A program made the translations under genes and the position numbers. Shown in pieces: positions 3,956 to 47,203 of a stretch of 64,000 nt of DNA. The notes beneath the pieces are model-generated. The model saw nothing but the letters and a program-made list of their open reading frames with translations. It was not told where the DNA came from and did not search any database. Source of the DNA: Schistosoma haematobium (lineage: Eukaryota; Platyhelminthes; Trematoda; Strigeidida; Schistosomatidae); assembly GCF_000699445.3 (NCBI RefSeq), contig NC_067197.1, forward strand, positions 32,223,809-32,287,808, given 5' to 3'. Each line of letters begins with the position of its first letter. Within the stretch, counting starts at the first letter, position 1.

Positions 3956-3959
3956 TGAT

Positions 3960-4645: not shown

Positions 4646-5721
4646 GGACTGTCTTGAAGTTCAACGGTTTTTTGAAAACCAAATTCCTTACACACTCACA
4701 CACAAATCCAAGGGTGATTTCGCTAGGTATATTATAGATAATCACGTTATTTTGAGAGACAATTCACTTAGCAACTTCACCGGCGATGAAATCGATATCA
4801 GGTTGTAATTTCAAGTCCTTCAGGAACTACATCCACTAACAGTAGCATTTTGAGTGGCGATAGTGTATGTATTTCTTGGATCACACGAGGAGTTTTGGAT
4901 TCTTCAGAAGCGCGAATAAACTGAATTGACCTTCACCAAACACCAAGAAACCCGCATTCACGGATTTCTCCCGACAGACTACAAACAGCGAACACTACCT
5001 ACCCTAATCAAAATATCTACCCAATAACACCAACTAAATATGCGAATTCGGATACATCGACAGAGACAAAGGATCATTACTAAGCGACATTCCTTATGAT
5101 ATTCAAGATTTATATCAGGCTCATCATACAAAAGAGTAAACCATATCGTTTAATTAATTAGTTAAAATATTGTGGTAAACAACAATTTAGTACAATCATT
5201 AACATTTCTAAATACAACAACTGAGGTCATCAGACTGATGTTTCTCAAAATCACACTCTCACATAGTGTACACTATTGTTATCATCATCATTTGTGTTAA
5301 CCTTGAGAAATATGTTTCATATGTGAAAACGCATATTAGATTAGAAGAACACAAATAGTAAATGTGATGATTCTATGTGACATTCAAACACGTATTCCTG
5401 ACTGAATCGTCAAGTAACAGTCGTTTATGTGAACAGATTTGAGAGGACGAAAGTAGTGCATGTTGTGTTCATGTCAAAGTGATACGGTTCATCGAGAATA
5501 ACATCTTCTTGTTGAACATTATTATCTTCTAGATCACTTCAACCATACTTTCTAGCTGTGAAACTCACTATAGTCTTGAGTTAAATAGAGGTGTAAGAGC
5601 TGAGTGTCCAGTTGACCATAATAGATACGACAAAATGAAAACAATTAATGCAACGAATAACCAGTGATAATGAATGTGGTACTAAAATCACTCACCACTA
5701 TCTCACTTAGTATCACCAATT
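4646..5721 (-). repeat. Module a, left arm of C-I (about 1.08 kb)
   Basis: Near-exact reverse complement of 9031-10105. Homology to the other arms starts at GGACTGTCTTGAAG (4646) and ends at the sequence next to AATTGG (5721). This is the outer left end of the palindrome: the T module that adjoins other a copies is absent here. Variants such as the CACCGGCG site near 4783 are shared with its partner at 9031-10105. No coding potential recognised. Confidence 0.9.
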
Positions 5722-6910
5722 AGCACGTTGAAGACAATGAAGAGGCATAAAATCATAATATGTCCATTACTCAATCGAGGTTAATGAAGCCGTAGAAACT
5801 CGGCAGTAAATTATGGGCGAATTCTGAAAACTGGAATGGAGTATAATTATATGTATTCTTATTGTATAAGTGTCCAGCAATTCGATTACGTATATTCACA
5901 TCCTTCTTATTGTAAGTTTTCTTTCGATCCACAGACCATTATAATATGATTTACTTTCAAAAAGTTTTAGGTCTCGATGAGCATAATGAATGGTAACTTT
6001 GGGATCCATTCATGGACCAATACTATGAGTATATATTTTTATCGTATAATCGTTAAATAACTAAACTATTCATAATCATATTCTTCTTATTATAATCCTA
6101 ATTTTGACCTATGAACCATTATTATACGTTTTACCATTCTTGAATTATGTCCAGTCTATTAGTCACTGCCTCCCACATTCACAGCCACTTTTGGTCAGAT
6201 AATGTACAAATGTTATTTTCTATTTTATGGTACGTTGTGGTCTGCTTGATTGGTGTATATACACCTACTATGTTTGAAATACATGATTCATATTTCAGAA
6301 GCAGAGATTAGCGTCTTGGACTTTAATGGCTGGGCTAGGCGGAAAGCAGGACCAATCAGAACTCTAGGCTGCTCGCACATGTTTTATGCCACACTGTTTC
6401 GTTCGATAATTCACTGCTTCTGATTGGCGGTATCATTAGGTATACATTAACAGGGCACACAGTCCAGAAGTTATAACACAAGGTTATGCCCACAACCATG
6501 TTCTTTGTATTTTCATAGCTTATACTCATTCAGATATGTTGAAAAAGATGAAACGTATTAGGACATTTATCCAGCATTTACTCCATCTCATTCAGTAATT
6601 TGTACGTCATTCATAGTATTCTGACTTGTTTTTACATTACTGTCCTTCAATTTATCTAATCCATATTTATTTCTGATCATTAATCTTACAATTCCATTCA
6701 ATACGTAGAGCTATTAAAATTCACATGTTATTCTTTTCTCAGCGATAGGTATCGCTGTACATCTGACCGGATTTCGGATGAATAAGCTGGATAATATAAC
6801 TGTGGAAACTGAAGAGAATGACAAAACGTTCATTTATTTTGTACAGTTTGAGCTACTATAAACATATTTCTGTTAAAGTCTGTGAAAGCCACTTCATTTG
6901 GAATGCTTTA

Positions 6911-7588
6911 TGTTAGATCCATTTTGAAGATTTTTGTGTGTGAAAATCCCTCCTGTATACACTTGCAGTTTGTTCCTACTGATTCCTTTAGTTGTACATT
7001 TTGTTAGTCGTTTTGATTATATTTGACTTGTTAATATTTGTATTTCATTAGAGTTTCTATTTTTCTTACGCCTTCACTAAGTTTTCGTGTTTCTTCCTGA
7101 ATTGCATTTATGTTGTTTGACATGATACTTAGTCTTGGCAGCAGATATATTGGTTTGTTCCTCCTCTTGATTGTGTTGCTTGTATTGACTGGAATTGTGC
7201 CTTTCATTGACTGTGAATTGAGGCATTCTTTCAGAATTGGAAACACTCTGTGTTATAAAGCAACCAAATATTATCTTTTGAATGAATCTGTGCGTGATCT
7301 AGCCAGACAGGATAGAATAACACTGATTTGTTGTGATTGGTAGTTTTCTCGCATCCTTTATCAACTTCGTTATTTATTGTAATCTAGATCTGATTAATTG
7401 AACAATTATTGGTTGAATAGCTGGGTGATCATATTTGTTTAGGTAACGATGTGCATTCAACTTTATGATGAATATTAGAACCGTCATTTTACCCAATTAC
7501 TTTGTTTTTGACTTTAATCGGGCAAGGGCGCGTATCTAACCCACCTAGACAGCTATTCTTCAGTCCAAACCTTTGTTTGGATCTTTCA
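6911..7588 (+). mobile_element. Solo LTR related to the BEL/Pao element, copy I
   Basis: Begins TGTTAGATCC and ends GGATCTTTCA. It aligns throughout with the LTRs of the BEL/Pao element at 12418-18621, including TAGATACGCGCCC and the (T)TACCTAAACAAATAT block, but is clearly diverged. Flanks CTTTA and GTTTA are a 5-bp target duplication with one mismatch. Both strands carry 70-77-codon frames (7031-7246, 7110-7343) that are LTR sequence, not genes. The same insertion occurs in all three C copies, so it predates the duplication. Confidence 0.82.
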
Positions 7589-7925
7589 GTTTATATGAAA
7601 TAGCTACATTAGCTGGCATTGAGCATAAACATACGTCATTATAATAGCTACTAAAATATATGATTGTTGGTTGACATTTGCATTTTGAATTATTCTAATT
7701 CAAACATAGAATTATTCATTGAATAACATTAAGGTTGAATGAAGAAAGCTAACGTTCTATGTATGACATATTTTGCAACGTAAAACTTGTCGTCGTACTA
7801 TATTTTAGTCTTCATTCGTTCATCTTAATAGTTTCTACCTTCCAAGTTTCATTGAGAAACCATAATGTCACAAGAGAACAGTAAATTAAAAAAGTGATCT
7901 AAACGCCTTAGAATTATCAGCATTG

Positions 7926-8068
7926 GGTTGTGGAGATTTGTCAGAGTTTGATGGAGTTCACGGATCGATGAATGTTAGATCACCATTGGAAACCTGGAGG
8001 CATTTGATAGCAGTTTAGTCCTAGTATGGGACTCTTCAGCAGTGCGCATCCACGACCTGTCACTCCGT
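7926..8068 (-). mobile_element. Decayed SINE with dead hammerhead, copy in C-I
   Basis: On the minus strand this matches the 3' half of the tRNA-headed SINEs near 50-52 kb: a CTGAAGAG core, a CCCATACTAGGAC stem II, then the CCAGGTTT tail. The conserved GAAA is TAAA here and the cleavage triplet region has changed, so the ribozyme is predicted dead. The tRNA-like head is missing. Confidence 0.65.
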
Positions 8069-9030
8069 ATGTGTGCACAAATATTTCCGTAACATCCTGA
8101 AAACTCGTTTTAAGCACAGAATTCTGGTTAGTATATTCCTGAGCAGTTTCAAGTAATCTTGTACTTATAAAATACCTTGAAAAACAAACTTGGTTAATTT
8201 TATCAAGTTTCTATTATAGAAAATTGAGTTTAGTTTTAACCGACTAAACCTCCAAAATATAATCACTTGACATCTCCAGATAAACAAATTTTATTCTGTG
8301 TCACCATAGTTCACCGATAATGAGGAAGCATTTCGTGCCAACAATTTAAAACACTAAATATTATCTCACGTGGATGATGAACTCGTGTCAATGTCACTCA
8401 AGTTGTTTGCTTTATAATCACGAAAACGACTTATTTTATACACAAAACAACTTGGTAATGACAACTGTGATGGAGTACATGAATTTTCCGTTCTGACCTG
8501 TTGATAGCCGAGTTCAAATATGATAGCTTTGCTCAATTTCCACTGAAAGCTGAAAGGAAGTAGTAGTACTCTGTGGCGAAATAGAGGGTTTTTACAAAAC
8601 TATGGAAATGAAGTGAAACGGGCAAAAATGAGAAACTCAGTTTTTGATGCTCTGAGTATGGGGAGTAATTCGGTCCGTCCTCTATCCTCAGGAGACATGA
8701 GACTATGCACTGAAGAAACAACTCATGACGAGCTGAATATAATCCGACAAACCCGTCTGAAGTATGAGTTGAAATTTCACCATTCTATCTATTAATTATT
8801 ACCTCACATAATAGAATGTTATTCATTATTTCGACTCAATATCATATCAGTTCTTCCAATTGAATGAGTTCGAATATCTTTGCTATTTTTGTAAAACTTC
8901 TCTGAATAACCAGAGGCTACTAGCCGTCCAATAAATCACACATAAAACCCACTGTATAGCTTCATCTACCCATATCGTCAGGAAGGAAACTTGAGTCATT
9001 TAAACGTCGTCATTCGTTTCAGTGCTAGTG

Positions 9031-10105
9031 AATTGGTGATACTAAGTGAGATAGTGGTGAGTGATCTTAGTACCACATTCATTATCACTGGTTATTCGTT
9101 GCATTAATTGTTTTCATTTTGTCGTGTCTATTATGGTCAACTGGACACTCAGCTCTTACACCTCTATTTAACTCAAGACTATAGTGAGTTTCACAGCTAG
9201 AAAGTATGGTTGAAGTGATCTAGAAGATAATAATGTTCAACAAGAAGATGTTATTCTCGATGAACCGTATCACTTTGACATGAACACAACATGCACTACT
9301 TTCGTCCTCTCAAATCTGTTCACATAAACGACTGTTACTTGACGATTCAGTCAGGAATACGTGTTTGAATGTCACATAGAATCATCACATTTACTATTTG
9401 TGTTCTTCTAATCTAATATGCGTTTTCACATATGAAACATATTTCTCAAGGTTAACACAAATGATGATGATAACAATAGTGTACACTATGTGAGAGTGTG
9501 ATTTTGAGAAACATCAGTCTGATGACCTCAGTTGTTGTATTTAGAAATGTTAATGATTGTACTAAATTGTTGTTTACCACAATATTTTAACTAATTAATT
9601 AAACGATATGGTTTACTCTTTTGTATGATGAGCCTGATATAAATCTTGAATATCATAAGGAATGTCGCTTAGTAATGATCCTTTGTCTCTGTCGATGTAT
9701 CCGAATTCGCATATTTAGTTGGTGTTATTGGGTAGATATTTTGATTAGGGTAGGTAGTGTTCGCTGTTTGTAGTCTGTCGGGAGAAATCCGTGAATGCGG
9801 GTTTCTTGGTGTTTGGTGAAGGTCAATTCAGTTTATTCGCGCTTCTGAAGAATCCAAAACTCCTCGTGTGATCCAAGAAATACATACACTATCGCCACTC
9901 AAAATGCTACTGTTAGTGGATGTAGTTCCTGAAGGACTTGAAATTACAACCTGATATCGATTTCATCGCCGGTGAAGTTGCTAAGTGAATTGTCTCTCAA
10001 AATAACGTGATTATCTATAATATACCTAGCGAAATCACCCTTGGATTTGTGTGTGAGTGTGTAAGGAATTTGGTTTTCAAAAACCGTTGAACTTCAAGAC
10101 AGTCC
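9031..10105 (+). repeat. Module a, right arm of C-I
   Basis: A 1075-bp reverse complement of 4646-5721, continuing directly into module T. It starts AATTGGTGATACTAAG and ends CAAGACAGTCC. No coding potential recognised. Confidence 0.9.
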
Positions 10106-12126
10106 ATATGAATGTATTCGCTCTAATGTAATGCGCCATATGTAGATTTACCCTATCTTGTTTAAATTCGATTCACGTTTATTTGTTGAATAGCTGAAGG
10201 GATCCGAACGGCTATTCAGTACACTAACAAAGTTTAGGATTGGTCGTATCGTCTCGCATGAAACCGCAGTAGCGTACCTCAAACGAACATAATGCTGTTG
10301 AGATTACAACAAATCCTTCCTCATCAGCATGAGGACCCACTTATGCTGTTAAACTGTCTCATGTTCGCCAACACTCTGAATTACCAACGAAGAATGCTAA
10401 ATTGCCTCAAATGTATGTAGTGACCTCAGGCAACCAATGCATGTACAATGGCGACATTAATTCGAAATCTTTCAGCAAAACATTAGAAACTCATGCCCAA
10501 CTACCTAGTTCTAGCGTGAAAGCTCTTAAAAACAGTTAAGACTAATACGTCTATACCATGTTATAAGAAAGTATATACAGAACCTTCTGGTTCCAGACCT
10601 AATCGCAAGAATATTACAATGTCTTTAGCGTACAATAATTTGCACACCGACATCATGTTTTACCTTAATAATAATTGAGGTGGCTATATGATCAGAATTC
10701 GTTCAAACGTCGTACAAGACGGACACCATCACCGTCGTGTAAGCAGGGCTGATTTAGGAAAGACCGCAGAATACCAACGTGTCTCCAAAAGTTCGGGTAA
10801 TTTGGATGAGTTGATAGTCAATGCATTTACACATGCATCCGCTCCAAACTACAATACTTCAAGGGATTCATGTTGCCCTAGAATGAACTGGGTTGCCGGT
10901 AGTTGTCAGTCATGATGAATTTCCGCTAACCATTAACATACACTTCTGGTCGCAGTGAGAGTGATAATATACTTGATCTAATATTTAATAGAGATGTCAT
11001 CCCACTACCTGTACAATTATACAATGAGTTGAAGAACAGTGAAAAGAAAGTAGTTCTCTGTGCCCTCCCTATCCATCCCTCTCATAACCGAGCCAGACAA
11101 AACTCCGTCCATATACGTACTATAAGCATGCTGACTGGGACGTCCTCAGCCCACTGGTTAACTTCTCTGACTTGGATAACTTTTTCTCATGTATAGGTCT
11201 CTAGGATGCCATCGACACATTCTATCTGATCGTCAGCTCGCGACAGTTGAGCAAATAACAATAGTTTTTAACCAAATTAGAGAGAAGCACAGGTTAAAAG
11301 CCATTATTGAGTTGCTGTTAGCAATTAATGCCAGCTCAGAAGTGCAAAACGTAATTCTCCTTTTCAATAAACGCGTTAAAGCAACTCATCATTTTCATTT
11401 GCGATGCATCCTGTATAACAGCACCTTCATATACGCCCCTAAAATTATAGCAGACCTCTTCAGTGGTATTTATACGAATGGTAATAATTACTGAGTGGCA
11501 CTGAGTCAAGAGTTATGTGGGTGACTAGTAACTGGTAAATGGGCACAGAATACATATGTGCCACACAATTTACTTGTTTTTTGCGTGAGCTGTGATGCTG
11601 CTTGCTTGCACAAGGCAGTGGAGAAACGTCAGGTGATGCAGTCCCATGGTAGCCGTTGATCGATGATTGGTTCATACACCATTTGTTCCCTCACGACCTT
11701 GGAGCCCATGTGCACCACTTATCCTTACTGTTGAGAAACCGCATATTATTGAACCACGTTAGAGATAAGATTGACATGAACAATTATCGGCCCATAAACA
11801 TTGCTGCAATCATCTCTAGGATTATTAGAAAAATTGTTAGTGACGAACTTTCTAACTAACTACTCGCTGAGAAATTATCAATGATTCTCATAATCGATTT
11901 CTGGAAGTCGATCTTGTAATACTTGCCACTTTGACTTCTTTAATTTGGTGTTGTCTCAACGTAACCAATGATATCTTGTCTAAATGCTATACTTTGACAT
12001 TTCTAAAGTTTTCACATCGTTAGTCACCAACTTGTTGTAGATAAACGTGCTCATTACGGGGATCAAAACGTTCTGCTTTCCTAGATTGCTAAATTGTATC
12101 AGTATGAAGCTTAATAAAGTTGCACA
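10106..12126 (+). pseudogene. Module T copy 1: decayed CR1-like LINE
   Basis: Conceptual translation across frames shows the order of a CR1-type ORF2. First come endonuclease remnants (a MNWVAG tract at 10688-10915, then SDNILDLIFNRD near 10950). Next is the linker before the reverse transcriptase (frame 11189-11494, with HLRCILYNSTFIYAPKIIAD). Then RT start motif NYRPIN (about 11795), and a decayed LDFSKAFD-like FDISKV segment near 11995. Stops and frameshifts throughout mean it cannot be functional. A stretch at about 11583-11722 matches the 5' part of the LINE at 56290-57661 and looks like a nested fragment. T lies between arm a and segment Y and forms part of the inverted-repeat arms. Confidence 0.75.
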
Positions 12127-12412
12127 CATTTCACAGTACGATAGTACATACATCCTTTCCTCACCACAAATGTCACAATTTTTTCATACCCTGGACACAA
12201 TTTTATCCAAATTCTGATGGTTACACTGAGCCCTTCCCTCTCCCAACGTCAGACTGCTATTCACTAAGCTTCCGAGTTTAGGCTTGTTCAACTTTTTTAA
12301 TAGGTAGCAAAAAGCCTAGAATGTACAAATGTTATTAGAGACTGATCAACAATGTGCATTAACAACAACGACAGAATGATAGAAACGTTTGCAGACATTG
12401 ATTTATTCAGTT

Positions 12413-12417
12413 GTAAC
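12413..12417. repeat. Left target-site duplication of BEL/Pao element
   Basis: GTAAC directly precedes the LTR and recurs at 18622-18626. The uninterrupted site is visible in the mirror copy near 38185, which reads TTGTAACAACGAACC on the complement and proves the insertion. Confidence 0.93.
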
Positions 12418-12823
12418 TGTAAGATCCAAACTACGTTTGGACTGCTGGACAGCTGTCTGGATGAGTTAGATACGCGCCCTCGCCCGATTGAAACCAAAAC
12501 AAAGTAATTAGGTAAGATAGCGGTTCTATAATTTATCATAAATTTAAGTGTACATTATTACCTAAACAAATATAACCACTCAGCTATCCAACCAATAATT
12601 GTTCAATTGATCAAATCTAATTACAATAAATAAGAAAGTTGATAAAGGATGCAAGAAATTTACCAATCACAACAAAAACTATAATAAAAAATACAAGTAT
12701 TAACAACTCAAATGTAATCAAAATACAACAATGTACAACTAAAGGAATCAATAGGAACAAAGTACAAGTATATACATGGAGGGATTTTCACAAACACACA
12801 AAACATTCAAAATGGATCTTACA
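12418..12823 (-). mobile_element. 3' LTR of BEL/Pao element (147-bp deletion)
   Basis: A 406-bp LTR running TGTAAGATCC to GGATCTTACA. It differs from the 553-bp right LTR by two substitutions (around 12506-12511) and one 147-bp deletion bounded by the short repeat CAACAAA. The three related solo LTRs keep the deleted part, so this is a loss here. The element is transcribed on the minus strand, making this the downstream LTR. Confidence 0.9.
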
Positions 12824-12843
12824 CCGGCCCCCAAAATCCCTCC
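12824..12843 (-). other. Polypurine tract of BEL/Pao element
   Basis: On the minus strand a purine-rich run (GGAGGGATTTTGGGGGCCGG) directly abuts the 3' LTR, the normal place for the plus-strand primer of LTR retrotransposons. The matching primer-binding site beside the 5' LTR (just below 18069) could not be assigned to a tRNA. Confidence 0.65.
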
Positions 12844-12966
12844 ATACCACACAAGCTACCTTGATGTCTACGGTCATGGTTCATTATATAATATATCGCA
12901 CTACAGGAACGAGTAGGACTTACAACAGTACGCCTACTCGACCTACTTACATTGATACGCGAGGAA

Positions 12967-15900
12967 TTAATTCGTGCCTTCCAGGAGGCATAATCTACGT
13001 ATATCTCTTCTGACTAACCCACCGTTCGTACGAACAACCACTGTTCTAACTCTTCCGTCGTCATCTATTTTACAATCTTCAACTACTCCTAAGGGCCACT
13101 TTCCACGGGTCGATATGTCCGAAGCCACGATCACTACATCACCTTTCTGAAAATTGCGATGTTCAACTAACCATTTTTGACGCTTCTGTAAAGACGGTAA
13201 ATACTCTCTTAACCACCTTTTCCAAAACACATTAGCAAGATGATTAACCTGTTTCCATCGTTTGTCATATTTATCTCTGATGCTACCTTCTTCGACTATT
13301 CCGTCACATTCTCTCAATAATAACAGACTGTTTGGCGACAAGGCTAGTTGATCGTTAGCATCTTGGACGACTGGAGTTAAGGGTCGATCGTTCAATATCC
13401 TTTCAACTTCAATCAAATAAGTGCTTAAGGTCTCATCAGTTAAAGTCTGTTCTCTAGTTATCAACAATAACAGTCTACGTATAGACCTAATCATCCTTTC
13501 CCAGACCCCACCCGTGTGGCTGGATGAGGGCGGGTTAAAATGCCACTGAATCTGTCTAGCTGACAGTTCCTTGTCTATCCTTTGCTGATTCAACTGTTGC
13601 ACAAATCTCTTTAGTTCAGAGACCGCACCCACGAAATTCGACCCATTGTCACTGTAAATTTCTGCAGGTTTCCCTCTTCTTCCAATGAAACGTAGCAAGG
13701 CCATTGTAAACGAATCAGTATTCAAACTATGTGTCATTTCAATATGTACTGCTCGGGTTTGCAAGCAAGTAAATACACACCCATATCTTTTTTCTAGTGA
13801 TCTTCCTCTTTTGACAAAAAGGGGTCCAAAGTAGTCTACTCCCACGGCTGAGAAGCAATACCATCCTTGTTGCACTCTACAAGCTGGAAGTGGTGCCATC
13901 AATTGTTGCCCTGTAACCATCGTATACCGCCGGCATGTCACACACTTTCCTATCACTCTCTTAACCGTGCTGGTCCCCTTTATTATCCAATACCTTTTTC
14001 GAATCGTGGCCAGTACTTGTGACGTTCCTGTGTGCCCTTGTTCCTTATGATAATGTCTAATTATCATTTCTGTCACTAAGTGTCGACTGGGCAATATTAT
14101 CGGATGTTTAAAGGCATTTGAGAAATCTGAATAGCTTAGTCGGCCTCCAACACAGAGTAACCCATCAAGCATTATCGGTGATAAGCCCTTCAGATCATTG
14201 TGACTAACTACCTTACCATTGGTTTTAAATCCACTAAGTATTTCTCCATACACTTCTTTCTGAACCATCAACAAAATTTTACGCTTGGCGACGTCAAGTT
14301 CTTTGACCTTTAAACACCCTAGATGAACGGATCCTTCATGACTCGGTGAACGAAGCACCATCAGAAATTCTATGAACCTTCTAAGCCAGGCTACGGCCCT
14401 GACTAATTTCAACCACTCAGAATAATAAGCGAGAATAGGTGACATGTTGTACTTTATACTACTCAAGTTAACCACGGCAGTTTTTCTAAACTCAATATCG
14501 TCAGGAGTAGGTTCCGGACAGTCAGTGATTGCTGTACAAAATTCGCCATGCAGTAAGATAGGACATTTGAACCAAAGCTCAAGATCTGACATTTTTTGTA
14601 TACCTCTCGAGGTCCAATCCGCTGGATTCTGTGACGACCTTACATAACTCCATTGTTCAATCTTCGTATACTGATGCACAATGGCGAGACGGTTAGCTAT
14701 ATAGGTGCTATAGCGATTCTCGATATTCTTGATGTAGTACAATACTACCATGGAATCTGTATGGAAGTTTACCTTACAGAAAAAATTAGGCAGACTTCTC
14801 CGTAAGACTTCGCTAAGCCTCACACTTAACACTGCCGCTGCCATCTCTAGCCTCGGTATAGTGATCTGTTTGATAGGTGCTACCCTAGACTTGCTGTATA
14901 ACAAAATACAGTAGGGTTGTTCCTTCAAATAACTGACTCGAGCGTACGCGACTGCTCCGTAACCGATCTCTGAAGCGTCACTGAACAGGTGCAATTCTAC
15001 TTCCGCGTCGGGTTCGTCAATTCTCTTCTTGATACCCCTATCTACCGTAACATGACCTATTTGACGCATAAAGTTTACCCAATTTAGCCACGCCGACACG
15101 TATGGCTCGTTGAGAGGCTGATCCCAGCCTAATTGAGACTTACATAGTTTTTGCAAGAGAACCTTGGCAGTAAGACAGACTGGAGCAATTAAACCCAAAG
15201 GATCGGACAGAGAAGAAACTATAGATAGAATCCCTCTCCTAGTCAGAGGCCTTTCAGGCGCATCGAAGTAAAATTTGAATACATCTCGTTTAAAATCCCA
15301 CTCTACTCCTAGAGTTCGATGTGTAGTGTCATAACTCGCTGACATTTCTATCAAGGACTCTTCTTTACATACATCGGGCAAGATGGTCCTTACCTCCTCC
15401 GAGTTAGTAACCCATTTCTTTAGTTTAAAACCTCCCCTACATAATAACTCACTTATCTGCTTAACGAAACTCTTTGCTTGATCACAAGTGGGAAAGGATA
15501 CCAAGCAGTCATCAACATAGAAATTATTCTTAACAGCATCTACGACATAACCATCATAACCGTCAGAGAATAATTGTGCCGTCTTATTCAAGGCGAAGTT
15601 CGCGCAAAACGGCGATGATGTGGCACCAAATGGATGAGATGTCATTTGAAACTCGGATGGTTCCCTCGCCATGTCTCCCTCTTGCCACCACAGAAATCTT
15701 AAGGCTCCTCGATCAGACTCAGGGACCTTTACTTGCATGAACATTTCTTCCACATCCGCAGAGATTGCGACTGCTTCCTTGCGAAAACGCAATAGTATAC
15801 ACACTAACTCCGCAGTTGTGTCGGGACCCTGATAAATCATATCGTTTAGAGAAACGCCTGCAAACTTGGCGGCACAGTCAAATACCACTCTCAGTTTTTC

Positions 15901-17935: not shown

Positions 17936-18068
17936 TCACGAGCCTTGGACTTAATTTCCTTCGACGATTGTTTGGCATCGGAAGCGAACGACCAGATATT
18001 CCCAGAGACGATGATTGGAATCAACGAAACGAAAGCCAAACGAATTCGACCAAATATTTGTTTAGAAC

Positions 18069-19828: not shown

Positions 19829-19840
19829 TTCAGGCTAGAC
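19829..19840. repeat. Left 12-bp target duplication of RTE-like LINE
   Basis: TTCAGGCTAGAC recurs at 23047-23058, just beyond the other end of the LINE. The empty site in the mirror copy (near 36970) has the sequence once. Confidence 0.93.
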
Positions 19841-29745: not shown

Positions 29746-30077
29746 CTGATAATTCTAAGGCGTTTAGATCACTTTTTTAATTTACTGTTCTCTTGTGACA
29801 TTATGGTTTCTCAATGAAACTTAGAAGGTAGAAACTATTAAGATGAACGAATGAAGACTAAAATATAGTACGACGACAAGTTTTACGTTGCAAAATATGT
29901 CATACATAGAACGTTAGCTTTCTTCATTCAACCTTAATGTTATTCAATGAATAATTCTATGTTTGAATTAGAATAATTCAAAATGCAAATGTCAACCAAC
30001 AATCATATATTTTAGTAGCTATTATAATGACGTATGTTTATGCTCAATGCCAGCTAATGTAGCTATTTCATATAAAC

Positions 30078-35040: not shown

Positions 35041-38000
35041 TTAGTGATGAAAATACAGCTGGAGCTTTAAACATACAGTATTAGAATTTAAACTTAGGTA
35101 TTCCTACGATTTGTCGTTTCTGGACAGGCATTAGAACAGATCTCATAGTCTGAACGTCTTATGTGTTGCATAACTCAAAATCTTTATAACATTTCTATCA
35201 AACTTTATGTGCAACCACTCATAGCATATTACGCGCTTATTCTTAGTAATGTGCGCACGAAGAATGAGTTATAGTGGGAATCAGAACAGATAGTTTACTC
35301 TCCCGATACTTGGAACTGATTGTACCTTGAATTATAATTCCAGATGTACCCGAACTTGAGTTTGGCTCTTTATAGAAGAGACTCCAAATCTAATTCTCTT
35401 CTTCAAGATACTTAATAAACTATCCTCTACATCCAGTCAAGTAATTCAATATGCAGAAACTTTAATCAAAACACTCGTAAGTCCTTTTCACTAGTAAAAC
35501 AAACTTATGCTAACTCATCTCTTTTGATGAATTATTTTACCTGTGAATTCTCCGGACTGTGGAATAATCTACCACAATCCATATGCCAGCTGTGATAACT
35601 CCCAGTCTTCGTTCACCGTACGGCTCTTCTAAAAATGCGTTTAATGTTGTAGCACCTGCAAGTGTATCTTATTGCACAAGTTAGATTATAGTAACTGTTC
35701 CAGTCAACACTAACTAATTTGAATATATCCAACATGAACATTACATCAATGAGTCAAATGACATATGCATTATGGTATACCTTGCTGACATATTTTAGTA
35801 GTTATTTCTCTGTTGTCCCGACTTCTGTGCCCCTGTTTTATTTTCTCTGGATATAGATAGTTACAGTAAGTTCATGGTGGCGCATGAAAATTCCTTTCAA
35901 TGCACTGTGCATGAATCAACAAGATGTCCACTTAAGAAGAATTAAAAGTTAGCGGCCGATGTATTTCATTGCTGTAATAAATGTCCTAAATGTGCTGCCT
36001 AATCAATTTTTGAACTACTGGCATGAACTCTGTAATTACTATAAATTATCAAGTGATTTCCTAATTTGAGGTGATACAACGTATTCCAATTATTTGACGG
36101 GAAAAACTCCTATGGTTTGCTTATCGAGATGTATATGAAAATGATGCTCCCTTGGCACACAAGCTTACACAGAGTTATCCAGTTCATGACTGTTGTTTAG
36201 TCGTAAACTGACAAAGTTTATTATGAAACAACCTGTCGGTATGAATCAATCAGCAACTTGGTCAACTTGCATAAAATACAGAAACGTTTGTAACTTGTGG
36301 GTAAATGTTGTGATATGTATTGGCGATTAACTCATTTCGGAGAAATGACGAATATCATACTTATCTGATAATTTATACCTCTGATTATATCTCACAGGTT
36401 GATCTGTAATATTACCTACTTTATAACATGTGTGTGATTTCCAAATGATAGGTGGTGGGAGTTAGTCAAAAGTAAAATATAGACAGAGAGTTTTGAACTA
36501 ACTATCCTACATCACTAAGTCAGACCATCTAGCTTTGCTGTTGCAACACAAATTTCGTCAGACAGATCTGTAAGCCTACAGGAGCATTCTTCAAACCAAC
36601 TGCAACAGTCTGACAATCTCATTTATGGATTTTGTGTTTCCTCTAAGTAATTAATTAGAAAAAGTACACATTGGTTAATCGTAAGAACAAAAATTTACTC
36701 TGAAGAGTTCCTTTTAATTATTTGATTGAAACACGATACCATCACTCAAATACACATTTTTTTACCTTCTTTTTCTGTGGGAATTTATTCACGCCATTCT
36801 ACAATTACATTACATGAGTTCACGGTGCCTTGAATTGTCCAACCTGATCATGTTTGGGAAATCGATCAAACACGTGAACATGAAATGAAATAGCTTTTGA
36901 AATGATTTCAGAATAGGGAATCTATGAAAGAAACCAGGAACAATATAAAAGTTTAAGTTCATGTAGTCTAGCCTGAATGTATGCAGAAGCATCTAGACAA
37001 TGATAACTGAGATATTATTCTAGCAGCATTTTACCGAAGTAAGTTGATCATATTCCTATTGGCTACTTCATACCACAACAACTTGTGCATTGTAACTCGG
37101 TTTGTTAATTAAACATTTTTATTTATTCCAGTCTTCCTTGTTTGGCATACCATGGAAAGCACTTATCGTATACAAATTTCATCTCAGAATACAACACACA
37201 TATACTGGAAAGTGCTTTTCAGTAGTACAACACTAGTTCAGAGGTGATTTCCTCACTAACTCCTCTGGTGATCTATCTAACATAAATTTGAATAGGCTAT
37301 CCTATCAATCAACAGATATCCCGTCAATCCATTCCGACAACTTTATTTCTAACTGGTTATCTTCTGTAATGTCATTATCTTTACGTTTACTGTTATACCC
37401 GTCAACCATCTTGTTGACGTCTGACTATATAACTGTTTGACATTTACCTAGTTGATTGATAATCTGGAAATACGTTGATGTGCTATGGTTATCGAAATTA
37501 TCCGAAATTCTAAGAATTCATTCAACCCACAGTTATGATGTTTTCCGAATCGAAATCCCTGTCCGTAGTTGTCACCATCTATTCATATTTTTGATATTAT
37601 ATTATCGATATTCACTGCTAACCATCGTTTATGTATTTTTACATTAGGAAAGTGTCCCCCTCCATCACTGTGGTACTTATTGAGGTTTACGTAAATTGTT
37701 TTGTATTTATTCGCTGTTGTGTCTTTCGGCTTGCAGAACTTGGAATAGAGTGATCATTTTGGCTTTGAGTAATGTTGATTCCAAAGTGTTATGAAATTCT
37801 GATGGTGAATTCTGGAACCTATTTCATATGATGAAGGAAGATATGGTTTCAGCCTGTTGATGTTTTGATGGTTTGTTTATTCCCTTAATGCTTTCCGATG
37901 AGTTTGTGCTAGTAGACATTCTGATACAGGAGAGATATGAGATGAGTTGTTTCAACGTTTTGTGAATTGAGAATGGTGCATTGAGTTTCGTTTTACGTGT

Positions 38001-38473
38001 AGCGCATCTTTCACAAACCTCATCTAATGAACCGTTTAATTTACTGCTTTGTAGCCACATCTCTCTCACATATTTGACATTATCAGCGATTTTATCATGT
38101 AAATAAAAGTATTTTTGAGATCGTCTCACGTGAGAATAATCAATTTATCAAATATATGACCTATTCTAATCTTGGTTCGTTGTTACAACTGAATAAATCA
38201 ATGTCTGCAAACGTTTCTATCATTCTGTCGTTGTTGTTAATGCACATTGTTGATCAGTCTCTAATAACATTTGTACATTCTAGGCTTTTTGCTACCTATT
38301 AAAAAAGTTGAACAAGCCTAAACTCGGAAGCTTAGTGAATAGCGGTCTGACGTTGGGAGAGGGAAGGGCTCAGTGTAACCATCAGAATTTGGATAAAATT
38401 GTGTCCAGGGTATGAAAAAATTGTGACATTTGTGGTGAGGAAAGGATGTATGTACTATCGTACTGTGAAATGT
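35041..38473 (-). repeat. Module Y, copy II-III (minus orientation, uninterrupted)
   Basis: A 3433-bp reverse complement of the Y pieces in 12127-24981. It serves as the empty-site reference for both left-arm insertions: the BEL/Pao site is near 38185 and the RTE site near 36970. The frames 37824-38129 (minus) and 37456-37647 (plus) match those of the other Y. Confidence 0.9.
35541..35655 (-). other. Exon-like segment in module Y, second copy
   Basis: Identical by eye to 24366-24480 on the opposite strand, with the same acceptor and donor. Only the frame containing YGERRLG is open. Confidence 0.4.
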
Positions 38474-40490
38474 GTGCAACTTTATTAAGCTTCATACTGA
38501 TACAATTTAGCAATCTAGGAAAGCAGAACGTTTTGATCCCCGTAATGAGCACGTTTATCTACAACAAGTTGGTGACTAACGATGTCAAAACTTTAGAAAT
38601 GTCAAAGTATAGCATTTAGACAAGATATCATTGGTTACGTTGAGACAACACCAAATTAAAGAAGTCAAAGTGGCAAGTATTACAAGATCGACTTCCAGAA
38701 ATCGATTATGAGAATCATTGATAATTTCTCAGCGAGTAGTTAGTTAGAAAGTTCGTCACTAACAATTTTTCTAATAATCCTAGAGATGATTGCAGCAATG
38801 TTTATGGGCCGATAATTGTTCATGTCAATCTTATCTCTAACGTGGTTCAATAATATGCGGTTTCTCAACAGTAAGGATAAGTGGTGCACATGGGCTCCAA
38901 GGTCGTGAGGGAACAAATGGTGTATGAACCAATCATCGATCAACGGCTACCATGGGACTGCATCACCTGACGTTTCTCCACTGCCTTGTGCAAGCAAGCA
39001 GCATCACAGCTCACGCAAAAACAAGTAAATTGTGTGGCACATATGTATTCTGTGCCCATTTACCAGTTACTAGTCACCCACATAACTCTTGACTCAGTGC
39101 CACTCAGTAATTATTACCATTCGTATAAATACCACTGAAGAGGTCTGCTATAATTTTAGGGGCGTATATGAAGGTGCTGTTATACAGGATGCATCGCAAA
39201 TGAAAATGTTGAGTTGCTTTAACGCGTTTATTGAAAAGGAGAATTACGTTTTGCACTTCTGAGCTGGCATTAATTGCTAACAGCAACTCAATAATGGCTT
39301 TTAACCTGTGCTTCTCTCTAATTTGGTTAAAACTATTGTTATTTGCTCAACTGTCGCGAGCTGACGATCAGATAGAATGTGTCGATGGCATCCTAGAGAC
39401 CTATACATGAGAAAAAGTTATCCAAGTCAGAGAAGTTAACCAGTGGGCTGAGGACGTCCCAGTCAGCATGCTTATAGTACGTATATAGACGGAGTTTTGT
39501 CTGGCTCGGTTATGAGAGGGATGGATAGGGAGGGCACAGAGAACTACTTTCTTTTCACTGTTCTTCAACTCATTGTATACTTGTACAGGTAGTGGGATGA
39601 CATCTCTATTAAATATTAGATCAAGTATATTATCACTCTCACTGCGACCAGAAGTGTATGTTAATGGTTAGCGGAAATTCATCATGACTGACAACTACCG
39701 GCAACCCAGTTCATTCTAGGGCAACATGAATCCCTTGAAGTATTGTAGTTTGGAGCGGATGCATGTGTAAATGCATTGACTATCAACTCATCCAAATTAC
39801 CCGAACTTTTGGAGACACGTTGGTATTCTGCGGTCTTTCCTAAATCAGCCCTGCTTACACGACGGTGATGGTGTCCGTCTTGTACGACGTTTGAACGAAT
39901 TCTGATCATATAGCCACCTCAATTATTATTAAGGTAAAACATGATGTCGGTGTGCAAATTATTGTACGCTAAAGACATTGTAATATTCTTGCGATTAGGT
40001 CTGGAACCAGAAGGTTCTGTATATACTTTCTTATAACATGGTATAGACGTATTAGTATTAACTGTTTTAAGAGCTCTCACGCTAGAACTAGGTAGTTGGG
40101 CATGAGTTTCTAATGTTTTGCTGAAAGATTTCGAATTAATGTCGCCATTGTACATGCATTGGTTGCCTGAGGTCACTACATACATTTGAGGCAATTTAGC
40201 ATTCTTCGTTGGTAATTCAGAGTGTTGGCGAACATGAGACAGTTTAACAGCATAAGTGGGTCCTCATGCTGATGAGGAAGGATTTGTTGTAATCTCAACA
40301 GCATTATGTTCGTTTGAGGTACGCTACTGCGGTTTCATGCGAGACGATACGACCAATCCTAAACTTTGTTAGTGTACTGAATAGCCGTTCGGATCCCTTC
40401 AGCTATTCAACAAATAAACGTGAATCGAATTTAAACAAGATAGGGTAAATCTACATATGGCGCATTACATTAGAGCGAATACATTCATAT
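38474..40490 (-). pseudogene. Module T copy 4: decayed CR1-like LINE (inverted)
   Basis: Reverse complement of 10106-12126. It shares CCTAGAATG (Arg codon) and CATGATGAA variants with copy 1, its mirror partner, rather than with copies 2 and 3. A private A/G change near 39486 and a small deletion in the A-run near 39333 mark this copy. Confidence 0.75.
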
Positions 40491-41548
40491 GAACTGTCTT
40501 GAAGTTCAACTGTTTTTGAAAACCAAATTCCTTACACACTCACACACAAATCCAAGGGTGATTTCGCTAGGTATATTATAGATAATCACGTTATTTTGAG
40601 AAACAATTCACTTAGCAACTTCGCCGGCGATGAAATCGATATCAGGTTGTAATTTCAAGTCCTTCAGGAACTACATCCGAGTGGCAATAGTGTATGTATT
40701 TCTTGGATCACACGAGGAGTTTTGGATTCTTCAGAAGCGCGAATAAACTGAATTGACCTTCACCAAACACCAAGAAACCCACATTCACGGATTTCTCCCG
40801 ACAGACTACAAACAGCGAACACTACCTACCCTAATCAAAATATCTACCCAATAACACCAACTAAATATGCGAATTCGGATACATCGACAGAGACAAAGGA
40901 TCATTACTAAGCGACATTCCTTATGATATTCAAGATTTATATCAGGCTCATCATACAAAAGAGTAAACCATATCGTTTAATTAATTAGTTAAAATATTGT
41001 GGTAAACAACAATTTAGTACAATCATTAACATTTCTAAATACAACAACTGAGGTCATCAGACTGATGTTTCTCAAAATCACACTCTCACATAGTGTACAC
41101 TATTATTATCATCATCATTTGTGTTAACCTTGAGAAATATGTTTCATATGTGAAAACGCATATTAGATTAGAAGAACACAAATAGTAAATGTGATGATTC
41201 TATGTGACATTCAAACACGTATTCCTGACTGAATCGTCAAGTAACAGTCGTTTATGTGAACAGATTTGAGAGGACGAAAGTAGTGCATGTTGTGTTCATG
41301 TCAAAGTGATACGGTTCATCGAGAATAACATCTTCTTGTTGAACATTATTATCTTCTAGATCACTTCAACCATACTTTCTAGCTGTGAAACTCACTATAG
41401 TCTTGAGTTAAATAGAGGTGTAAGAGCTGAGTGTCCAGTTGACCATAATAGATACGACAAAATGAAAACAATTAATGCAACGAATAACCAGTGATAATGA
41501 ATGTGGTACTAAAATCACTCACCACTATCTCACTTAGTATCACCAATT
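40491..41548 (-). repeat. Module a, left arm of C-III (18-bp deletion)
   Basis: 1058 bp. Otherwise matches the other arms but lacks 18 bp at about 40678 (CTACATCCGAGTGG, where others have an extra CACTAACAG... stretch). Confidence 0.9.
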
Positions 41549-41879
41549 CATTAGCACTGAAACGAATGACGACGTTTAAATGACTCAAGTTTCCTTCCTG
41601 ACGATATGGGTAGATGAAGCTATACAGTGGGTTTTATGTGTGATTTATTGGACGGCTAGTAGCCTCTGGTTATTCAGAGAAGTTTTACAAAAATAGCAAA
41701 GATATTCGAACTCATTCAATTGGAAGAACTGATATGATATTGAGTCGAAATAATGAATAACATTCTATTATGTGAGGTAATAATTAATAGATAGAATGGT
41801 GAAATTTCAACTCATACTTCAGACGGGTTTGTCGGATTATATTCAGCTCGTCATGAGTTGTTTCTTCAGTGCATAGTCT

Positions 41880-42285
41880 TGTAGCGTGGCGTCGAGTCGA
41901 AATTGACTATGAACACCGCTACAAAGAAACACGTGCCAAATAGATCAGAAGGCGTAAGAAGCTCGTTCCAAATGACTCCATAAAATCCCCGAGAAGCCGA
42001 ATACCAGAAGGCAATTAATGGACCAAGTCGAGGTTTATTAGCTGGCGATCTCGTGGCATCGAAAGGATACCGAGATCGTGCCAGGATACAACCTTGGTTA
42101 CAGAAGGTAACCGAATTCGCGCGAAGTTACAATCAAAGTGTAAGTATAAGAATGGAAGCACAAAATAGCTGTCATTAGCACAGTCAAACAAAAGCACGTT
42201 AAAACAAACACTGGTACAGTTGGTTATAATAATAATTGTTTTTATTAAACCAGTCGTGTTCTCGTGATAAATGTGAGTCACTACA
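41880..42285. mobile_element. Solo LTR, probably Ty3/Gypsy-like
   Basis: A 406-bp insertion beginning TGTAGCG and ending CACTACA (inverted 5-bp termini TGTAG/CTACA), flanked by GTCT at 41876-41879 and 42286-42289. The empty site CATAGTCTCATG is seen in C-I and C-II. A 4-bp duplication and TG..CA ends favour Ty3/Gypsy over BEL/Pao, but no internal region remains to prove the family. The 88-codon minus frame inside (42015-42281) is not a gene. Confidence 0.82.
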
Positions 42286-43486
42286 GTCTCATGTCTCCTG
42301 AGGATAGAGGACGGACCGAATTACTCCCCATACTCAGAGCATCAAAAACTGAGTTTCTCATTTTTGCCCGTTTCACTTCATTTCCATAGTTTTGTAAAAA
42401 CCCTCTATTTCGCCACAGAGTACTACTACTTCCTTTCAGCTTTCAGTGGAAATTGAGCAAAGCTATCATATTTGAACTCGGCTATCAACAGGTCAGAACG
42501 GAAAATTCATGTACTCCATCACAGTTGTCATTACCAAGTTGTTTTGTGTATAAAATAAGTTGACCGGAATGTCAACGATAAAATTGAAGACAATTAAGGG
42601 GCAGAAAATCGGAATATGTTTCGTAAACACACTGTTCAAACGCGACGGTATATCAAAACTTCAACGTCAATTGCATGTTTACACTTCTTGCAGCGAAGTT
42701 GTAAGGCCATACCTGCTTAGGAACGTCAGTTCAACCCATTCCAATCCTGCTGAATGTTAGTGATGAGATTTATCAAACGCTGTCGTTTTGAAACGAACTG
42801 GATCAAAATCAGTGTCTGCATCATCACTTCAATATTTGTGACAATTATTTACAAAATTACTATGCACTACTGCTGAATCAGTGCGAAGTTGTGTGTAAAG
42901 ATGAGGTTTAGTTGAAATCTAATCCACTAGAGATTATAAACTTCAGACTCATTGCATGTACATTGTTAGTTTAAGGTGGGTAATCAATTCATGGAATGTA
43001 GAGTGTAAATTGTTATTGCACGGATTCCAACATCAAGTTAATCCTTTAAAACAAAACACTATTCCAAATAAATGCACATTAGTCTAGATGACATTGGATA
43101 TACTCAATTATGTAACAAGTCGTTTTCGTGATTATAAAGCAAACAACTTGAGTGACATTGACACGAGTTCATCATCCACGTGAGATAATATTTAGTGTTT
43201 TAAATTGTTGGCACGAAATGCTTCCTCATTATCGGTGAACTATGGTGACACAGAATAAAATTTGTTTATCTGGAGATGTCAAGTGATTATATTTTGGAGG
43301 TTTAGTCGGTTAAAACTAAACTCAATTTTCTATAATAGAAACTTGATAAAATTAACCAAGTTTGTTTTTCAAGGTATTTTATAAGTACAAGATTACTTGA
43401 AACTGCTCAGGAATATACTAACCAGAATTCTGTGCTTAAAACGAGTTTTCAGGATGTTACGGAAATATTTGTGCACACATACGGAG

Positions 43487-43625
43487 TGACAGGTCGTGGA
43501 TGCGCACTGCTGAAGAGTCCCATACTAGGACTAAACTGCTATCAAATGCCTCCAGGTTTCCAATGGTGATCTAACATTCATCGATCCGTGAACTCCATCA
43601 AACTCTGACAAATCTCCACAACCCA
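43487..43625 (+). mobile_element. Decayed SINE with dead hammerhead, copy in C-III
   Basis: Same element as 29603-29745, collinear, with the same TAAA core change. Confidence 0.65.
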
Positions 43626-43960
43626 GTGCTGATAATTCTAAGGCGTTTAGATCACTTTTTTAATTTACTGTTCTCTTGTGACATTATGGTTTCTCAATGA
43701 AACTTGGAAGGTAGAAACTATTAAGATGAACGAATGAAGACTAAAATATAGTACGACGACAAGTTTTACGTTGCAAAATATGTCATACATAGAACGTTAG
43801 CTTTCTTCATTCAACCTTAATGTTATTCAATGAATAATTCTATGTTTGAATTAGAATAATTCAAAATGCAAATGTCAACCAACAATCATATATTTTAGTA
43901 GATATTATAATGACGTATGTTTATGCTCAATGCCAGCTAATGTAGCTATTTCATATAAAC

Positions 43961-44639
43961 TGAAAGATCCAAACAAAGGTTTGGACTGAAGAATAGCTGT
44001 CTAGGTGGGTTAGATACGCGCCCTTGCCCGATTAAAGTCAAAAACAAAGTAATTGGGTAAAATGACGGTTCTAATATTCATCATAAAGTTGAATGCACAT
44101 CGTTACCTAAACAAATATGACCACCTAGCTATTCAACCAATAATTGTTCAATTAATCAGATCTAGATTACAATAAATAACGAAGTTGATAAAGGATGCGA
44201 GAAAATTACCAATCACAACAAATCAGTGTTATTCTATCCTGTCTGGCTAGATCACGCACAGATTCATTCAAAAGATAATATTTGGTTGCTTTATAACACA
44301 GAGTGTTTCCAATTCTGGAAGAATGCCTCAATTCACAGTCAATGAAAGGCACAATTCCAGTCAATACAAGCAACACAATCAAGAGGAGGAACAAACCAAT
44401 ATATCTGCTGCCAAGACTAAGTATCATGTCAAACAACATAAATGCAATTCAGGAAGAAACACGAAAACTTAGTGAAGGCGTAAGAAAAATAGAAACTCTA
44501 ATGAAATACAAATATTAACAAGTCAAATATAATCAAAACGACTAACAAAATGTACAACTAAAAGAATCAGTAGGAACAAACTGCAAGTGTATACAGGAGG
44601 GATTTTCACACACAAAAAACCTTCAAAATGGATCTAACA
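43961..44639 (-). mobile_element. Solo LTR related to BEL/Pao element, copy III
   Basis: Collinear with 30078-30755. The frames 44206-44439 and 44303-44518 lie within the LTR and are not genes. Confidence 0.82.
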
Positions 44640-45828
44640 TAAAGCATTCCAAATGAAGTGGCTTCCACAGACTTTAACAGAAATATGTTTATAGTAGCTC
44701 AAACTGTACAAAATAAATGATCGTTGTGTCATTCTCTTCAGTTTCCACAGTTATATTATCCAGCTTATTCATCCGAAATCCGGTCAGATGTACAGCGATA
44801 CCTTTCGCTGAGAAAAGAATAACATGTGAATTTTAATAGCTCTACGTATTGAATGGAATTGTAAGATTAATGATCAGAAATAAATATGGATTAGATAAAT
44901 TGAAGGACAGTAATGTAAAAACAAGTCAGAATACTATGAATGACGTACAAATTACTGAATGAGATGGAGTAAATGCTGGATAAATGTCCTAATACGTTTC
45001 ATCTTTTTCAACATATCTGAATGAGTATAAGCTATGAAAATACAAAGAACATGGTTGTGGGCATAACCTTGTGTTATAACTTCTGGACTGTGTGCCCTGT
45101 TAATGTATACCTAATGATACCGCCAATCAGAAGCAGTGAATTATCGAACGAAACAGTGTGGCATAAAACATGTGCGAGCAGCCTAGAGTTCTGATTGGTC
45201 CTGCTTTCCGCCTAGCCCAGCCATTAAAGTCCAAGACGCTAATCTCTGCTTCTGAAATATGAATCATGTATTTCAAACATAGTAGGTGTATATACACCAA
45301 TCAAGCAGACCACAACGTACCATAAAATAGAAAATAACATTTGTACATTATCTGACCAAAAGTGGCTGTGAATGTGGGAGGCAGTGACTAATAGACTGGA
45401 CATAATTCAAGAATGGTAAAACGTATAATAATGGTTCATAGGTCAAAATTAGGCTTATAATAAGAAGAATATGATTATGAATAGTTTAGTTATTTAACGA
45501 TTATACGATAAAAATATATACTCATAGTATTGGTCCATGAATGGATCCCAAAGTTACCATTCATTATGCTCATCGAGACCTAACACTTTTTGAAAGTAAA
45601 TCATATTATAATGGTCTGTGGATCGAAAGAAAACTTACAATAAGAAGGATGTGAATATACGTAATCGAATTGCTGGACACTTATACAATAAGAATACATA
45701 TAATTATACTCCATTCCAGTTTTCAGAATTCGCCCATAATTTACTGCCGAGTTTCTACGTCTTCATTTATCTCGATTGAGTAATGGACATATTATGCTTT
45801 TATGCCTCTTCATTGTCTTCAACGTGCT

Positions 45829-46904
45829 AATTGGTGATACTAAGTGAGATAGTGGTGAGTGATTTTAGTACCACATTCATTATCACTGGTTATTCGTTGC
45901 ATTAATTGTTTTCATTTTGTCGTATCTATTATGGTCAACTGGACACTCAGCTCTTACACCTCTATTTAACTCAAGACTATAGTGAGTTTCACAGCTAGAA
46001 AGTATGGTTGAAGTGATCTAGAAGATAATAATGTTCAACAAGAAGATGTTATTCTCGATGAACCGTATCACTTTGACATGAACACAACATGCACTACTTT
46101 CGTCCTCTCAAATCTGTTCACATAAACGACTGTTACTTGACGATTCAGTCAGGAATACGTGTTTGAATGTCACATAGAATCATCACATTTACTATTTGTG
46201 TTCTTCTAATCTAATATGCGTTTTCACATATGAAACATATTTCTCAAGGTTAACACAAATGATGATGATAATAATAGTGTACACTATGTGAGAGTGTGAT
46301 TTTGAGAAACATCAGTCTGATGACCTCAGTTGTTGTATTTAGAAATGTTAATGATTGTACTAAATTGTTGTTTACCACAATATTTTAACTAATTAATTAA
46401 ACGATATGGTTTACTCTTTTGTATGATGAGCCTGATATAAATCTTGAATATCATAAGGAATGTCGCTTAGTAATGATCCTTTGTCTCTGTCGATGTATCC
46501 GAATTCGCATATTTAGTTGGTGTTATTGGGTAGATATTTTGATTAGGGTAGGTAGTGTTCGCTGTTTGTAGTCTGTCGGGAGAAATCCGTGAATGTGGGT
46601 TTCTTGGTGTTTGGTGAAGGTCAATTCAGTTTATTCGCGCTTCTGAAGAATCCAAAACTCCTCGTGTGATCCAAGAAATACATACACTATTGCCACTCAA
46701 AATGCTACTGTTAGTGGATGTAGTTCCTGAAGGACTTGAAATTACAACCTGATATCGATTTCATCGCCGGCGAAGTTGCTAAGTGAATTGTTTCTCAAAA
46801 TAACGTGATTATCTATAATATACCTAGCGAAATCACCCTTGGATTTGTGTGTGAGTGTGTAAGGAATTTGGTTTTCAAAAAACAGTTGAACTTCAAGACA
46901 GTTC
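45829..46904 (+). repeat. Module a, right arm of C-III
   Basis: 1076-bp inverted partner of 40491-41548. Shares CACTATTGCCACTC and TTTCTCAAAA variants with the left arms of C-II and C-III. Confidence 0.9.
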
Positions 46905-47203
46905 ATATGAATGTATTCGCTCTAATGTAATGCGCCATATGTAGATTTACCCTATCTTGTTTAAATTCGATTCACGTTTATTTGTTGAATAGCTGAAGGG
47001 ATCCGAACGGCTATTCAGTACACTAACAAAGTTTAGGATTGGTCGTATCGTCTCGCATGAAACCGCAGTAGCGTACCTCAAACGAACATAATGCTGTTGA
47101 GATTACAACAAATCCTTCCTCATCAGCATGAGGACCCACTTATGCTGTTAAACTGTCTCATGTTCGCCAACACTCTGAATTGCCAATGAAGAATGCTAAA
47201 TTG
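46905..47203 (+). repeat. Module T, truncated fifth copy
   Basis: Matches the first 300 bp of T (compare 10106-10405). Similarity ends abruptly near GAAGAATGCTAAATTG. This is the right boundary of the young palindrome. Confidence 0.85.

Follow-up and report, generated by a model that had tools for sequence, protein, structure and literature searches.

A nested 42-kb inverted repeat at 32.2 Mb of a Schistosoma haematobium contig and its relatives near contig ends

Architecture of the palindrome

The window analysed here, a stretch of 64,000 nucleotides of the Schistosoma haematobium contig NC_067197.1 (C3:32,223,809-32,287,808), holds a nested palindrome of ~42 kb that in the self-alignment of the window spans 4646-47207 and is centred on a module termed C-II (28076-31944). 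Coordinates are window positions unless a contig is named. The modules are called a (~1.38 kb, 1378 bp at full length), C (~3.9 kb), T and Y, with T' and a' denoting reversed copies, and they follow one another in the order a-C-I-a-T-Y-T'-a'-C-II-a-T-Y-T'-a'-C-III-a. Three levels of mirror result, in that every a-C-a is a small mirror, every a-T-Y-T'-a' is another, and all of them lie within the large mirror about C-II. The modules and the insertions they carry are as follows (LTR, long terminal repeat; LINE, long interspersed nuclear element; ORF, open reading frame).

4646-5721, plus strand: a, outer arm of C-I, 1076 of 1378 bp kept; left edge of the palindrome (self-alignment)
5722-9030, minus strand: C-I, reversed, with a 560-bp deletion (self-alignment and C comparison)
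9031-10408, plus strand: a, inner arm of C-I (self-alignment)
10106-12126, plus strand: T, outer left; shares 303 bp with the end of the full-length a
12127-24980, plus strand: Y, left copy, ~3.4 kb net of two insertions
12418-18621, minus strand: LTR retrotransposon, in the left Y only; 5-bp target duplication GTAAC
19842-23046, minus strand: presumed LINE, in the left Y only; 13-bp target duplication TTCAGGCTAGACT; long ORFs on the minus strand
24981-27000, minus strand: T, inner left, reversed
26698-28075, minus strand: a, left of C-II
28076-31944, plus strand: C-II, spacer of the 42-kb palindrome
30075-30758: old LTR-like piece inside C-II
31945-33322, plus strand: a, right of C-II; where any false assembly turn would have to sit
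33020-35040, plus strand: T, inner right; shares 303 bp with the end of the full-length a
35041-38472, plus strand: Y, right copy, without the two left insertions
38473-40492, minus strand: T, outer right, reversed
40188-41548, minus strand: a, inner arm of C-III, with a 17-bp deletion
41549-45828, plus strand: C-III, with a 406-bp solo-LTR-like insertion
41880-42285: the solo-LTR-like insert of C-III, 406 bp; 4-bp target duplication GTCT
45829-47207, plus strand: a, outer arm of C-III; right edge of the palindrome

The original prediction, made from the sequence alone, had proposed a nested palindrome centred on C-II and had named self-alignment as a check. Aligning the window against itself with blastn bears this out, with mirror pieces about C-II that are 99.0-99.6% identical and one 276-bp piece that is identical throughout:

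23047-28075 against 36977-31945: 99.6%, 5033 bp
18622-19841 against 38186-36965: 99.3%
8700-12417 against 41879-38182: 99.0%
8429-8704 against 42560-42285: 100%, 276 bp
4648-8435 against 46902-43114: 99.3%

Net of insertions the arms measure 14,003 bp on the left, which also carries the 560-bp deletion of C-I, and 14,548 bp on the right, in line with the ~14-15 kb foreseen; of the two predicted edges, 4646 and 47203, the left stands and the right moves to 47207. Kilobase arms of at least 99% identity flank a short spacer, since the 5033-bp piece at 99.6% adjoins the 3869 bp of C-II, and a chance origin of the mirror is excluded by its length and identity.

The arms are set apart by three one-sided insertions. 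We take the LTR retrotransposon of the left Y, whose LTRs differ at 2 of 415 compared sites, to belong to BEL/Pao, following the original prediction. The mirror sites of this element and of the presumed LINE are empty, as is the C-II sister site of the solo-LTR-like insert in C-III. A chimeric read or missed adapter is ruled out for the arms as a whole by these one-sided insertions with their target-site duplications, as the original prediction had argued.

Mirror partners also share private variants at the positions first proposed. The motifs CCTAGAATG and CATGATGAA lie at 10877 and 10911 and are mirrored at 39712 and 39678; CCTGGAATG and CATGACGAA lie at 33791 and 33825 and are mirrored at 26221 and 26187; and CCTAACAC, in the a arms of C-II, lies at 27040 and is mirrored at 32973, as opposed to CCTTACAC at 4686 and 40530, mirrored at 10059 and 46857, although four of these six motifs have further occurrences within the window. 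Among the four T copies of the window, all seven two-against-two sites pair outer partner with outer and inner with inner, and the nine other variable sites are singletons. These T pairs differ at 3-13 of ~2020 sites (99.4-99.9% identical), with 3 and 6 differences across C-II and 11 and 13 across each Y. Because T pairs are closer across C-II than across each Y, the large C-II mirror appears younger, or more actively converted, than the Y-centred mirrors.

Tandem copy and relatives elsewhere in the genome

The original prediction did not foresee that the region exists in two tandem copies, or that its layout turns up again, complete or partial, close to several contig ends. In the 167 kb read around the window, a stretch without any N, -83216 to -34906 matches -10811 to 55351 in pieces at an offset of 72 to 95 kb, the pieces being separated by larger insertions or losses. 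The upstream palindrome region, here copy 1 (the window being the other copy), has arms of 8.3 kb at 99.7% identity, a spacer of 2.5 kb and two C modules, and relative to the window it is without part of Y and without 545 bp of one T. The left edge at 4646 is the point at which the left flank, shared with copy 1 and equal to the copy-1 flank up to 4647, meets the interior of an a repeat. Upstream, the same flank continues into other sequence, and the left edge is therefore probably a deletion break.

The arms of copy 1 differ from each other at 24 of 8333 sites, as against 181 of 17,090 for four flank pieces compared between the copies (0.7-1.35% per piece; a fifth piece, with 47 of 1144 sites differing, was excluded from this count), a contrast with a Fisher p of 4e-12 when sites are treated as independent. 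Of the 27 differing columns of these arms, gaps included, 12 fall within the outermost 500 bp. The two copy-1 C modules differ at 3 of 3868 sites from each other and at 24 and 27 from C-II, and the copy-1 T pair differs at 1 of 1474 sites, as against 7-18 of 1472-2016 between it and the T copies of the window. Between the copies, three left-flank pieces, divided where larger gaps fall, show 133 substitutions but not one small indel in 10.6 kb, and a right-flank piece shows 48 substitutions together with 12 indels in 6.5 kb.

The 1.4-kb a repeat occurs ten times at 32.2 Mb, one copy truncated, at 98-100% identity, and of the five a-C-a units in the window and copy 1, three have arms that, with the whole of a compared, are mutually closest (2/1075, 3/1361 and 3/1378 differences). 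For users of the reference, a tandem duplication with ten such near-identical repeats is likely to make read mapping and variant calls unreliable.

The layout C'-a-T-Y-T'-a'-C is found, whole or in part, at C3:2.64-2.79 Mb, at C2:0.7-1.2 Mb and on C5. A genome search with a, in which 40 of 308 candidates were scored so that match counts are lower bounds, lists matches outside 32.15-32.27 Mb at C3:0.55, C3:2.63-2.80, C2:0.27-1.22 and C5:46.51-46.63 Mb. Outside 32.2 Mb, each of the 44 listed a matches is no more than 2.8 Mb from a contig end, and 40 of the 43 listed C matches are no more than 3.2 Mb from one; the three exceptions sit at 8.0 Mb on C6, 4.0 Mb on C4 and 19.0 Mb on C8, the lengths of C4 and C8 not having been obtained. 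Among the matches listed, copies are thus concentrated near chromosome ends, as in a subtelomeric family. The relatives compared below are:

B1a, C3:2.636-2.643 Mb
B1b, C3:2,652,333-2,659,281
B2, C3:2.778-2.795 Mb
C2x, C2:0.949-0.956 Mb
C2y, C2:1.18-1.19 Mb

B1a and B2 have inverted arms of 99.6% and 99.8% identity that hold C and are ~92-94% identical to the window. The 560 bp deleted from C-I are present in C-II, C-III, both copy-1 C modules and B2R. B1b, a damaged relative, runs unbroken through both T/Y junctions at exactly the bases found in the window (35040/35041 and 38472/38473); its Y departs from the window Y by 6.1% and 4.3% in two pieces, and its own two T ends share 86.7% identity over 203 bp. 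In C2x the order is a-T-Y-T'-a', the left arm being damaged. C2y is an 8.3-kb self-mirror that has no spacer (C2:1181501-1191500, positions 1745-10000), with half-arms of ~4.1 kb at 99.1%, which runs to the end of the stretch read; its pieces are mostly 84-87% identical to the window, some near 80%, and its centre lies inside Y, at a different place from the window centre. On C5 one arm was seen within the 6 kb read. We also noted four inverted a pairs on C2 (744014-750934, 835978-842899, 948768-955686 and 1183930-1190816), two of which were read; their spans of 6.89-6.92 kb, within 0.45 Mb near the C2 start, suggest a repeated palindrome unit.

The 32.2-Mb cluster itself is interstitial, at 32.2 of 47.4 Mb on C3, and no run of at least two TTAGGG units occurs in the 167-kb region. 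One setting offered by the original prediction, a sex-chromosome palindrome, has to be given up: C3 is 47,367,863 bp long, too short to be chromosome ZW, on which the part of the Shae.V3 assembly paper available places a gene at 87.94-87.95 Mb (PMC8846543). The longest contig, C2 (93,306,550 bp), may be chromosome 1 or ZW, and the N50 and L90 given in the same part of that paper leave room for a second contig about as long as C2 (PMC8846543).

Probable origin and maintenance of the arms

Arms of the same locus are closer than arms of different loci in C and T of copy 1 and in the T pairs across C-II; the same holds for a at B1a, B2 and C2y, where the a arms are identical (851 bp, 852 bp for the inner pair of B2, and 805 bp) and stand 3.4%, 4.7% and 12.6% from those of the window. 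The T ends of B1b are 13% apart, as against 0.1-0.6% in the window and copy 1. Since B1b nonetheless shares both T/Y junctions with the window, the palindrome seems, from these alignments, to be older than the divergence of its arms, which points to arm-to-arm gene conversion. The locus is a ~42-kb nested autosomal inverted repeat and one member of a multi-locus family with the layout C'-a-T-Y-T'-a'-C, and we consider it likely that its arms are kept alike through such conversion.

Several observations weigh against this reading. The argument from age draws on one relative, B1b, whose left T remnant is ~206 bp, and the three-C form is that given by the assembly. The a arms are 2.4% apart at B1b and 8.7% at C2x and at neither locus are they mutually closest, or only by a tie; the right arm of B1b is 0.8% from B1a and that of C2x 2.1% from C2y. 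Nor, over 846 bp, does a fall into separate groups for the window and copy 1, some arms being closest to an arm in the other tandem copy. Two of the five a-C-a units, those of C-II (8/1378) and of the right C of copy 1 (6/1378), do not have mutually closest arms. Near-identical and decayed members do not form a clean contrast of intact and broken palindromes, since at B1a and B2, too, much of T is missing on one side. Finally, GC bias, a common but not required mark of conversion-maintained palindromes, is not seen, with 16 AT-to-GC and 16 GC-to-AT changes among 38 polarised C sites.

The same comparisons bear on whether the palindromes arose separately and recently at each locus through inverted duplication, in which case conversion would be unneeded. 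The a tree groups arms by cluster (32.2 Mb; 2.64-2.66 Mb; 2.78-2.79 Mb; C2 with C5) and the C2y centre is unlike that of the window, as this account would have it. It is nevertheless disfavoured, and we think it improbable, because B1b crosses both junctions at the window bases with T ends 13% apart, C2x keeps the order a-T-Y-T'-a' with a arms 8.7% apart, and the tandem copies share a layout, yet the copy-1 arms are closer than the flanks.

Spacer length gives no rule for arm likeness: spacers are 0, 1.5 and 3.2 kb between near-identical arms and 4.0 and 5.2 kb between decayed ones, but T and a in the window are still 99.3-99.9% identical across C-II (3.9 kb) and across both Y copies (3.4 kb, and 12.9 kb with insertions).

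The history of the locus that we infer is the following. An ancestral two-C palindrome of the subtelomeric duplication family would have reached 32.2 Mb; the block containing it would then have been duplicated in tandem, and the upstream copy would have been left without part of Y, its centre. In the window copy the third C probably arose through a replication U-turn, a template switch from one to the other of the inverted a repeats flanking C-II, by which T-Y-T'-a-C would have been mirrored to the right. Inverted a arms form the exact borders of C-II, the sequence beyond both arms is mirrored, and the C orientations (minus, plus, plus) are those expected from a copying U-turn in a two-C palindrome like copy 1.

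The site of this putative U-turn is also where an assembler could turn falsely. The three-C 42-kb form could be an assembly or haplotype join in which two two-C versions meet head to head via the a at 31945-33322, a repeat present ten times at 32.2 Mb. In favour of a join, the right a of C-II is the sole place where the C end at nt 3869 continues via a into T, the same end in copy 1 leads to flank, and the available part of the assembly paper describes scaffold gaps closed with long reads and a Hi-C library from 100 adults (PMC8846543). Against this, the halves carry private features (on the left the LTR element and LINE, on the right the solo LTR together with 12 private C sites), the 167-kb stretch is free of N and Purge Haplotigs stands among the references of the assembly paper (PMC8846543, in part). 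We regard a join as unlikely, though not negligible, and the family is independent of it, with copy 1, B1a, B2 and C2y as separate mirrors.

Once present, the nearness of inverted arms would allow a break in one arm to be repaired from the other. Such maintenance would be passive, because the parts tested yielded neither a host gene nor coding constraint. Outside the inserted elements no ORF of at least 120 aa lies within 4646-47207. Of the 51 ORFs (at least 50 aa) listed in 26698-38500, ten were run through Pfam and none gave a match above cut-off; an interleukin-10 match at 34094-34405 (E 0.0037), below its cut-off, was set aside. A synonymous/nonsynonymous scan of 724 overlapping blocks across 28076-38472 found no excess of synonymous change, the lowest p of 0.003 (uncorrected) being expected by chance, and that block (35360-35491) lies by eye within or beside a LINE-like relic. 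One PDB search (best E 0.86) and stop counts were also unconvincing, and a hidden gene in C or T-Y was set aside as a candidate, with the limit that genes with very short exons, a type known in schistosomes, could escape these tests.

The recurrence of a-C-a and a-T-Y-T'-a' at many places with inverted ends also raises the possibility of a fold-back-type transposable element, with a as terminal repeat and C or T-Y as body. Homology to the window stops, however, at differing points at B1, B2, C2 and C5 with no common ends seen, though no search aimed at empty sites was made, the copies among the matches listed sit near contig ends, and no transposase was recognised by eye among the same 51 ORFs, ten of them run through Pfam; we hold this explanation to be very doubtful.

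Function is not needed for the conversion account. The family could be a reservoir of mirrored transposon relics that are read through into long double-stranded hairpin RNA feeding the transposon-derived small interfering RNAs (siRNAs) reported in schistosomes; conversion would then keep the hairpins near-perfect, and selection, beyond arm nearness, would maintain the mirror. Such a source is conceivable because siRNAs of Schistosoma japonicum derive mainly from transposable elements, according to the part of the report available (PMC2820009), and we rate the idea as highly speculative.

Known systems and neighbouring features

Long-lived conversion palindromes are best known from sex chromosomes, where gene rescue is a usual explanation. 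The available parts of two accounts of mammalian X/Y conversion palindromes describe, as here, large inverted arms above 99% identity and a structure apparently older than the arm divergence (PMC3723533, PMC8981503). Unlike those, the palindrome of the window lies off the sex chromosome, has no recognised gene in its arms, is nested on three levels and lacks visible GC bias. Actively maintained inverted repeats are also known in Caenorhabditis (Zhao et al. 2007, PMC1803023, seen in excerpt), where, as here, the inverted layout is kept while the sequence drifts, with one lineage having decayed arms. According to the same excerpt, the Caenorhabditis repeats hold paralogous gene pairs and intervening sequence, with intergenic arms of 160 and 124 bp in two examples, and were compared across species; here kilobase arms without recognised genes are compared across loci of one genome. 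In Schistosoma mansoni, subtelomeres exchange segmental duplications, and related duplications have, as here, spread among chromosome ends (Brann et al. 2024, PMC10900676, available in part); in contrast to these, the present units are mirrors and one cluster is interstitial. A look through the main text of that paper found none of the terms 'inverted', 'palindrom' and 'gene conversion', and no report of large schistosome palindromes stood among the literature matches listed, which is no proof of absence.

The kind of structure is thus known, from mammalian sex chromosomes and from the maintained inverted repeats of Caenorhabditis. As far as our literature search shows, what is new is that the mirrors are nested, that no genes were recognised in them, that a subtelomeric family has an autosomal site which is interstitial, and that near-identical and decayed members occur within one genome. 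If the conversion reading is true, a gene-less nested family would suggest that arms homogenise through nearness, genes or not, and near-identical and decayed members in one genome could make the cause of arm likeness directly testable.

Some smaller features deserve mention. By eye, T looks like an old, broken relic of a LINE reverse transcriptase, with no Pfam match, and the old LTR-like piece of C has many relatives across the genome. A 377-bp piece of C (28641-29017) has relatives at ~70-75% identity on C6 and near the C3 end; an alignment of six sequences contains only two one-base gaps, yet each has stops in all six frames, which suggests a constrained non-coding piece or a low indel rate. 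To the right of the palindrome lie three type I hammerhead ribozymes (Rfam RF00163) at 50808-50853 (minus strand), 51397-51442 (plus strand) and 53581-53625 (minus strand), and in their neighbourhood are two ORFs, 52133-52546 and 60915-61280, which we take to resemble the GIY-YIG endonucleases of Penelope-like elements.

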